Assembly: GCA_001940845.1 (NCBI GenBank)
Contig: MSGV01000029.1
Span: 1 to 64,000, forward strand
Source: Christensenellaceae bacterium Phil7
GTDB taxonomy: Bacteria; Bacillota; Clostridia; Christensenellales; CAG-138
Length of the DNA: 64,000 bases
Direction: 5' to 3'
In this document: piece by piece, positions 41,176 through 43,319 of the stretch
Numbering within the stretch: position 1 is the stretch's first letter
Layout of the letters: every line of letters starts with the position of its first letter
Program-made: the position numbers and the translations under genes
The notes under the pieces: model-generated
What the model was told of the DNA's origin: nothing
The model's database searches: none
What the model saw: only the letters and a program-made list of their open reading frames with translations

Positions 41176-41207
41176 AAGGAGCTCAACTTTTTAAAGTCGA
41201 GCTCCTT
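41176..41207. terminator. strong hairpin terminator between dockerin-protein gene and DUF58 gene
   Basis: AAGGAGCTCAACTTT-TT-AAAGTCGAGCTCCTT. Confidence 0.65.
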
Positions 41208-41235: not shown

Positions 41236-43221
41236 TTACAAACCCATTGCTGCACGAGCGATCAGGGTAGCATCAACGGTATTAACGTCACCATCGCCAT
41301 TGATATCTGCGATAGCAAGCTGATCCTCATTGAGCAGGTTAAGGCCGAGAACATGACGATGAACGAGGATTGCATCTGCAATAGTAACACTGCCGCTTCC
41401 ATCAACATCTCCGGGGATGCCGGACTGTCCGGAATATGCAACCTCATCGATCTTGACGCAGTCATCACCGCCGTTTACGCTGCCATCCTTTGTGAAACTC
41501 CAAACGAAGGTCACAGCACCATCAGCAGTTGCCGTATATGTATAGGTCTGCCAATTTGCATTGTTAGTGCCTGAAAGGTGAAGCTTCTGCTGACCATCAA
41601 CTGTGAAATTGAACCAGTCATAGTTATTCTCACTGCTATACTTATAATCGAAGGTGAGAGTCTCGCCGGCATGCATATTGATCGTTGCGGTAACTGAAGA
41701 GGTGGAGTTACCAACGCCGCCGTTGCCGCTCTTCGCATAGAACCTTCCATCTGCTTCTTCAGCAATGAAGGGATACTGCTCGGAAGTTCCGAATGCAATG
41801 GTGCCGCCCTCAACATTCAGAGAATCATACAGGCTGGTATCGATATTTACGGTTACAGCAACGGTTGCAGTACCGAATACCTGACCATCGACCATAACAG
41901 TACAGGTGACAGTAGTGGTACCGGGATTTACGCCAGTGATGTTTGCACGGCGGTTGTTTCCGTTTACGGTAGCAATATTCTCGTTAGCGGAAGTCCAAAC
42001 AAGCTCATACTGGTTTGCATTATCTGGTACACGACCGAAGGTAACGGTGGCTGACCTGCCAACGTACATTTCAACGGCATTTGTATCGAGGGTGAAGCTT
42101 TCAAGAGCTACAGGCTCTGCTTCGCCGAAGAGAGTCCATTCGCAATAAACGGTCTGCTCTGAATCGGGATTTGTGGGGAAATCGTCAACAGGGCTCATTA
42201 CAATGGGATATGCATCGCCGTGAGGATCTGGGGTTCCCCATCTATCCTTCATGGCCTGGAAAGCCTCGGCAACCGTGCCGCCCTCTTTCATGACATTCCA
42301 GAATGTTTCTTCATACTTATAGTCACCTACAAAGGTAACACTCTGAGAATAGCCATATACAACACCTGCGCCTGCTTCGAGCAATGCTGCACCGGTGGTA
42401 CCACGTCCTTGAAGCTTCATGCCTTCGCAGATTGCCATCCATACCATACAATTTGCAAGGGTATCGGGAGCATGATGTTGAATATATCTGCCATCGATAT
42501 ATGCTGCGCTGCCTGCATTGACTGCCCAACCATTGGAGAAATCTTCCTGAGTAATGCCATTCTTGGTTGTCAGGCAGAGATAGGAAGAGGTTCCGCTCTG
42601 AGTACCGTGGCTATCAAAAATAACGGTGCCCTTTTCAACGAAATTCTCTGCAATAGCCGGTCCGGTTGCAGCGGTGGACTGAATGAGGGTATATTCGCCG
42701 CCCGTTGCCTCAGCAATGGACTGAGCTTCACGCTTATACTGGTCTGTGAAGCTGCTATCGTGGCCATAATAGGGAGCTATGAGGAAGACATCGGGAGACT
42801 CGGCATCCTTAGTGCCAGTGCTGATCCCGCTGCCCTTAACTGTAACGAGCTGTTCATCTTCGGGAATGGGTGCAACATTCGTATTAAGCTCATTACGAAG
42901 CCTATAATTGTAGGCACAGTACATACCATCGACGGTGAAAAAGAAACCATCCTTGGTAAAGTCGGAGAAGCCGTCCCTGTCTATGAGGTCATTGCTCAAT
43001 GCAGCTTCATAAACTGCATTTATGACTTCAATACGGCTTGCACCTCTGTTCATTGCAGCTTCTTCTGCAACATTCAGGGTGTTCCATGCGTTGTCAAGCT
43101 TGCGCATCTGGGTTGCTTCGTATGCCGCTGCATCAATACTCTCTGCGAGGGTGGCAACGGGGACGAGAGCGAATACCAGAACGATCGCAAGAGCCATTGA
43201 TAGAACTCTACGGATTTTCAT
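41236..43221 (-). CDS. secreted caspase/gingipain-like cysteine peptidase candidate with Big2-like domain and C-terminal type I dockerin
   Basis: Signal peptide MKIRRVLSMALAIVLVFALVPVATLA; TVIFDSHG and VWMAICEG; Big2-like LDTNAVEMYVGRSATVTF...; dockerin GDVDGSGSVTIADAILVHRHVLG...ADINGDGDVNTVDATLIARAAMG. Confidence 0.8.
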   Translation of the reverse strand: MKIRRVLSMALAIVLVFALVPVATLAESIDAAAYEATQMRKLDNAWNTLNVAEEAAMNRGASRIEVINAVYEAALSNDLIDRDGFSDFTKDGFFFTVDGMYCAYNYRLRNELNTNVAPIPEDEQLVTVKGSGISTGTKDAESPDVFLIAPYYGHDSSFTDQYKREAQSIAEATGGEYTLIQSTAATGPAIAENFVEKGTVIFDSHGTQSGTSSYLCLTTKNGITQEDFSNGWAVNAGSAAYIDGRYIQHHAPDTLANCMVWMAICEGMKLQGRGTTGAALLEAGAGVVYGYSQSVTFVGDYKYEETFWNVMKEGGTVAEAFQAMKDRWGTPDPHGDAYPIVMSPVDDFPTNPDSEQTVYCEWTLFGEAEPVALESFTLDTNAVEMYVGRSATVTFGRVPDNANQYELVWTSANENIATVNGNNRRANITGVNPGTTTVTCTVMVDGQVFGTATVAVTVNIDTSLYDSLNVEGGTIAFGTSEQYPFIAEEADGRFYAKSGNGGVGNSTSSVTATINMHAGETLTFDYKYSSENNYDWFNFTVDGQQKLHLSGTNNANWQTYTYTATADGAVTFVWSFTKDGSVNGGDDCVKIDEVAYSGQSGIPGDVDGSGSVTIADAILVHRHVLGLNLLNEDQLAIADINGDGDVNTVDATLIARAAMGL

Positions 43222-43291
43222 TGGAATTCCTCCTTGTATTTTTTTGCTGTTTATACAGCACGAGAATAGCGTTGGCTATTGCTCAAATAAA

Positions 43292-43319
43292 ATTATACCA
43301 TAATTCAAAACGATGTCAA
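43292..43319 (-). promoter_or_regulatory. perfect-consensus sigma-A promoter upstream of dockerin-protein gene
   Basis: On minus strand TTGACA-N16-TATAAT. Confidence 0.75.

Follow-up and report, generated by a model that had tools for sequence, protein, structure and literature searches.

The window analysed here, a stretch of 64,000 nucleotides from Christensenellaceae bacterium Phil7, carries at 41236..43221 a gene for a 661-aa protein that is a candidate secreted, dockerin-bearing peptidase of clan CD fold. The open reading frame lies on the minus strand, running from 43221 to 41236, and its product has 92 homologous domains; the plus-strand frame over the same positions is interrupted by stops. 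An earlier note on this DNA, made from the sequence alone, had placed a 661-aa product in this interval, and the frame does exist, but the note gave no strand. The expression signals are on the minus strand as well. A sigma-70 promoter (43292..43319, TTGACA and TATAAT spaced by 16 nucleotides, with an extended -10 TG) matches the consensus at 12 of 12 positions, a ribosome binding site (AGGAGG, 43229..43234) can be read about 7 nt upstream of the ATG, and a terminator-like hairpin, like the promoter a consensus match only, stands directly 3' of the stop (41176..41207). By these signals the peptidase gene looks like a single-gene unit. The neighbouring genes look unrelated to it: they encode ThiI, an aminotransferase, a penicillin-binding protein, an RlmL-like methyltransferase and three proteins without a Pfam match. 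An operon with these neighbours was rejected because the peptidase gene has its own promoter and terminator, and the identities of the neighbours also speak against it.

The protein is built of several modules. Residues 1-26 (43144..43221) are a Sec signal peptide, MKIRRVLSMALAIVLVFALVPVATLA/ES, with cleavage expected after TLA. The signal peptide had been named in the earlier note and is confirmed by hydropathy as well as by reading the sequence: the Kyte-Doolittle 19-mer maximum is 2.6 within the first 40 aa versus 1.3 in the remainder, and the N-terminus is hydrophobic in 79 of 87 homologues. In aa 27-110 (42892..43143), the secondary structure of the model shows a helical pair and a beta hairpin, which are conserved among homologues, followed by a variable linker of lower model confidence (pLDDT). 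G99 in this N-terminal module is invariant in all 92 homologous domains; more speculatively, the helices and hairpin with their variable linker could be a prodomain. The catalytic core comes next, and a full-length AlphaFold model places two modules between it and the dockerin, one of Ig type and one a beta sandwich. The former is a Big_2 Ig-like module at about aa 374-459 (41845..42102), recognised by its strands in the model and by Pfam (PF02368, aa 374-444, 30 bits against a cutoff of 22.8). The latter, at about aa 463-597 (41434..41835), has no Pfam match and resembles by Foldseek the jelly rolls of CBM4, CBM61 and MAM domains. Foldseek matches of the full-length model fell mostly on these two parts. 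The protein ends in a type I dockerin at aa 603-656 (41254..41415), with two calcium loops, DVDGSGSVTIAD and DINGDGDVNTVD, which passes the threshold of Dockerin_1 (PF00404; 41 bits against 22.9, E 2e-10) and matches solved dockerins in a search of PDB sequences. All three C-terminal modules had been recognised from the sequence before these searches, and both loops are as then quoted. The dockerin would be expected to bind cohesin in a calcium-dependent manner.

The catalytic domain and its fold

We gathered 92 distinct homologous domains from public genomes and members of the bacterial family, mostly from MAGs of the ruminant gut that carry the labels Clostridia, Christensenella or Clostridiales. 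Four residues, D203, H205, G206 and C265, are identical in 92 of 92. A divergent subset of 42 sequences (23-64% identity to the window protein) has only nine invariant columns, these four among them. The earlier note had quoted strands ending in DSH205G and WMAIC265EG, which are present as quoted, and had singled out H205 and C265 as the key residues. Since it named both from one sequence alone, before any homologue was seen, their subsequent invariance is an independent test that they passed, and the motifs are not the product of chance. From this conservation and from the structural model, H205 (42607..42609, in DSHG) and C265 (42427..42429, in AICEG) are the predicted catalytic dyad.

The same evidence bears on the possibility that the domain is an inactive or non-proteolytic caspase-fold module serving as an adhesin or structural part. 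Inactive caspase-fold proteins exist, and the Big_2 and jelly-roll modules flanking the catalytic domain are adhesin-like. However, the His and the Cys are conserved without exception in the 92 domains, even at about 25% identity, where few other columns are, and we regard this reading as very unlikely. The domain is predicted to work like a peptidase of the caspase/gingipain class, with proteolytic activity expected from the conserved dyad.

The catalytic region has no match in Pfam, NCBIfam or the PDB sequences. An AlphaFold model of aa 27-372, built on an alignment of 60 sequences, has the caspase fold of clan CD (pLDDT 92.7, pTM 0.91), with its core at aa 125-343 (42193..42849). Enzymes of clan CD carry first the catalytic His, in His-Gly, and then the Cys, each following a core strand; in the model, H205-G206 and C265 each stand directly after such a strand. 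The best Foldseek match in the PDB was SAVED-CHAT (E 3.9e-6, probability 1.00, TM 0.43), followed by the Craspase TPR-CHAT and separase (the latter also with probability 1.00) and, at lower ranks, by MALT1, caspases and the gingipain RgpB (E 0.047). The caspase-fold match is a remote one, as the modest TM-scores (about 0.43) indicate. Matches to low-molecular-weight phosphatases in a PDB profile search, covering about 50 residues outside the His and Cys motifs, were discarded as spurious in view of the fold.

Profile comparisons point in the same direction. Aligned with hhalign, the profile of the family scored 41.5 against CHAT (E 3.9e-5 for this single comparison) over 145 columns, and the alignment pairs the His-Gly motifs and the cysteines of the two families; the best of 40 column-shuffled controls scored 21.1, and reversed profiles about 16. 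The window protein itself has no match to CHAT (PF12770) over the gathering score, and two of the 42 divergent homologues match it, with E down to 8e-4. Peptidase_C25 does not match the window protein, has no match in the genome at E 1e-5, is touched by one of the 42 homologues (E 0.003) and gave no hhalign match with the one C25 sequence tested. For Peptidase_C11, the hhalign probability was 0.1 and the genome has no match. Membership in C25 or C11 is thus ruled out by the profile searches and hhalign, while the ranking of CHAT above C25 is suggestive, because the profiles held four sequences (CHAT) and one sequence (C25); the same qualification holds for the greater closeness to CHAT than to C25 and C11. 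By the tests run, the domain would belong to a CHAT-related family of clan CD fold that lacks a Pfam entry and lies outside C25, C11 and CHAT. The original description of a clan CD, caspase/gingipain-like domain therefore holds for the caspase fold, which had been expected for the region of the two motifs, and is refined as to the relatives, which are nearer CHAT and separase than the C25 gingipains.

Cohesins and dockerin-bearing proteins of the genome

The absence of cohesins and carbohydrases from the window, remarked on in the earlier note, is uncontradicted there but misleading for the genome (2.21 Mb, 45 contigs, 94% complete). The genome-wide cohesin search that the note had suggested returned 14 matches on the window's contig and others, 13 of them over the cutoff, spread over nine ORFs; the contigs with cohesins are C13, C20, C23, C24, C29, C36 and C45. 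This census rules out a lone dockerin without a partner. One ORF (C23:36423-38840) is a several-cohesin scaffoldin of the kind found in cellulosome-type systems: it has four cohesins, and its C-terminal tail, NPPVTG followed by a hydrophobic stretch and RKK, looks like a sortase signal. Another (C20:34164-35057) combines a single cohesin with a C-terminal membrane helix. The genome encodes three sortases; one, on contig C36, has a cohesin gene about 1.6 kb away. A further cohesin gene, on C29 (117728-118681; L051:14729-15682), is broken by a run of N and adjoins a cohesin-dockerin ORF, and the two are probably one larger scaffoldin split by the assembly gap.

There are 51 dockerin ORFs over the cutoff and three just below it. 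The genome was read in the regions surrounding its dockerin and cohesin matches, and we scanned all 54 ORFs with Pfam. Three belong to the caspase-fold peptidase family (the window enzyme and two paralogues), six are S8 subtilases (seven counting one with a sub-threshold dockerin), thirteen are LRR proteins and about 11 carry DUF2436 and/or Cleaved_Adhesin, the latter a family of adhesins that are cleaved in Porphyromonas. Also among them are two CotH and two redoxin-like proteins, one protein of NlpC/P60 type and one of CHAP type. None of the 54 scored above the cutoff for a catalytic glycoside hydrolase or a polysaccharide lyase, and GH5 and GH9, the two glycoside hydrolase families searched across the genome, are absent. 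The dockerin-bearing cellulases or hemicellulases that characterise a plant-polysaccharide cellulosome thus number 0 of 54, and an ordinary cellulosome enzyme is ruled out by the dockerin census together with the absence of GH5 and GH9.

Some of these proteins have features of their own. About 12 of the dockerin LRR proteins have near-identical signal peptides (MKKRTLAALLALMLALAVLPTG...), and many are clustered on contig C10 (130640-188522), with others on C30, C35 and C7 (loci L045, L046, L047, L067, L068 and L074). The dockerin CotH kinase proteins are at L063:10685-13093 and L044:5287-7494. The Redoxin/AhpC-like proteins (L058:3005-4231 and L060:7160-8083) are an odd cargo for the surface complex of an anaerobe.

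One of the two paralogues, P0003 (L048:12191-15742, contig C24), has the same catalytic domain and, C-terminal to it, DUF2436, two Cleaved_Adhesin domains and a dockerin. DUF2436 and Cleaved_Adhesin are the accessory set of the gingipains RgpA and Kgp; P0003 is an instance of gingipain accessory modules on a different, non-C25 protease with a different attachment device. Its architecture would also suit a true gingipain (C25 in MEROPS and Pfam) that came from Bacteroidota and exchanged its T9SS domain for a dockerin, as would RgpB among the fold matches and the one homologue that touches Peptidase_C25. Against such an origin stand the lack of C25 matches in the genome and with the one C25 sequence tested, and the better agreement with CHAT by both fold and profile, so that we consider it extremely improbable.

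Distribution among relatives and proposed role

The caspase-fold peptidase occurs in 50 of 101 genomes of the same bacterial family, with 1-8 matches per positive genome. The positive genomes have a median of five cohesins, with at least one in 48 of 50 and at least two in 45 of 50, and the 51 negative genomes have a median of one, with at least two in five. The association of peptidase presence with a higher cohesin number holds at genus level, on genus medians (p=0.0005, a value that ignores the shared ancestry of the genera). Two of the positive genomes, both from genus g5, lack any cohesin match. The peptidase genes of relatives often come as tandem pairs (L078, L096, L101, L104, L106, L109 and L113).

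Among 399 genomes of the phylum, matches outside the bacterial family were found in five only, and no dockerin was detected in the homologue stretches read from there. Of the homologous ORFs with a complete C-terminus, 55 of 74 bear a dockerin; among the 19 that do not, 13 share a different C-terminal signature, IYKVVEG or IVLFKKVG (L092, L093, L094, L108, L110, L127, L128 and others), possibly an alternative attachment domain. Because these 19 and the few homologues read outside the bacterial family lack a dockerin, the enzyme does not depend on attachment. The enzyme family is thus wider than its link to dockerins, and it is in this lineage that the dockerin-bearing members have expanded.

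We think it likely that the window protein is a new, lineage-specific caspase-fold cysteine peptidase docked on the cell's own cohesin-dockerin complex of proteases and adhesins. The protein would be exported by Sec, as its sequence indicates, and its core would cut as a cysteine peptidase of an undescribed CHAT-related family, using the dyad H205/C265. The HMM matches suggest that its dockerin would plug, with calcium, into cohesins of surface scaffoldins of the same cell, for which the four-cohesin protein with the NPPVTG-TM-RKK tail and the single-cohesin protein with the C-terminal membrane helix are candidates; their tails and the sortases point to anchoring on the cell surface. Its partners in the complex would be the dockerin-bearing subtilases, gingipain-type adhesins, LRR proteins, CotH proteins and redoxins. 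To judge from this cargo, the complex most likely attaches the cells to protein from the host, feed, microbes or mucin, which would be cut to peptides for uptake.

The main rival to nutritional protein breakdown is a processing role, in which the enzyme sits on the scaffold as a maturation or housekeeping protease that processes, activates or turns over other components such as subtilase zymogens and adhesin precursors, or acts as a transpeptidase like PorU and GPI8 of clan CD. The genome does have gingipain-type adhesins, a kind that is cleaved in Porphyromonas, and its three divergent peptidase copies could differ in specificity. A review proposes such a role for the dockerin-S8 proteases of C. 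thermocellum (PMC12484212). However, the copy number is high (up to eight matches in one genome) and 9-10 of the dockerin proteins are peptidases while none is a glycoside hydrolase, which looks like a nutritional degradation set and not like a single processing enzyme. We therefore consider a processing role unlikely and prefer nutritional breakdown. Extended to the lineage, this preference would mean that ruminant-gut Clostridia (Christensenellales-like) turned the cohesin-dockerin system into a surface-anchored "protease-some" with several scaffolds, devoted to protein in place of polysaccharide and made of the caspase-fold family, subtilases and gingipain-type adhesins, a tentative proposal whose chances we put at not quite even.

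Proteolysis in the rumen is a driver of nitrogen loss in livestock, and knowledge of the responsible organisms and enzymes is incomplete. If our reading is true, a protein-degrading counterpart joins the cellulosome, the amylosome and the mucinolysome, secreted enzymes of clan CD gain a new family, and adhesin modules of gingipain type operate with an unrelated attachment system.

Comparison with known systems

The enzyme shares the caspase fold, with His-Gly and then Cys-x-Gly, with CHAT (PF12770: SAVED-CHAT and the Craspase TPR-CHAT/Csx29) and separase (C50). The known CHAT enzymes act inside the cell under the control of partners, whereas the window enzyme is secreted, bears a dockerin as well as an N-terminal module of its own, and falls below the Pfam thresholds. 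The gingipains RgpA, RgpB and Kgp are likewise secreted and of clan CD, and P0003 shares their DUF2436 and Cleaved_Adhesin. Unlike them, the present enzymes have a catalytic domain that is not C25 by profile, a dockerin in place of the T9SS C-terminal signal, and a Gram-positive-type lineage.

In the open-licence literature, we found nothing on a dockerin-borne CHAT-like or caspase peptidase, nor on the protease set of this lineage; Christensenellales SAGs are on record as containing dockerins and cohesins, to which no function was assigned (PMC10266427). The mucinolysome of Limousia is a gut cohesin-dockerin complex that includes dockerin peptidases, but it is dominated by mucin glycoside hydrolases, of which none was found on dockerins in the Phil7 genome (PMC12997984). 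Dockerin-attached proteases are also known from cellulosomes, e.g., the dDoc S8 protease of C. thermocellum (PMC12484212) and the papain-like RflaF_05439 of R. flavefaciens (PMC3573020); these differ in being minor parts of plant-degrading systems and in having other catalytic folds.

Protein-degrading cohesin-dockerin complexes have already been proposed in two cases. The planctosome of Nemodlikiaceae is a hypothetical machine that degrades polypeptides without cellulases; it differs in its M12B and M14 metallopeptidases, its single anchoring and single adaptor proteins, and its phylum (PMC6461901). The cellulosome-like complex of Ca. Stygibacter (Cloacimonadota), with predicted dockerin-bearing gingipain-like (C25) and S8 peptidases on a cohesin scaffold, belongs to another phylum and, unlike the genome studied here, includes GH18 and GH57, a CBM-bearing scaffoldin and peptidases annotated as C25 (PMC8542988).
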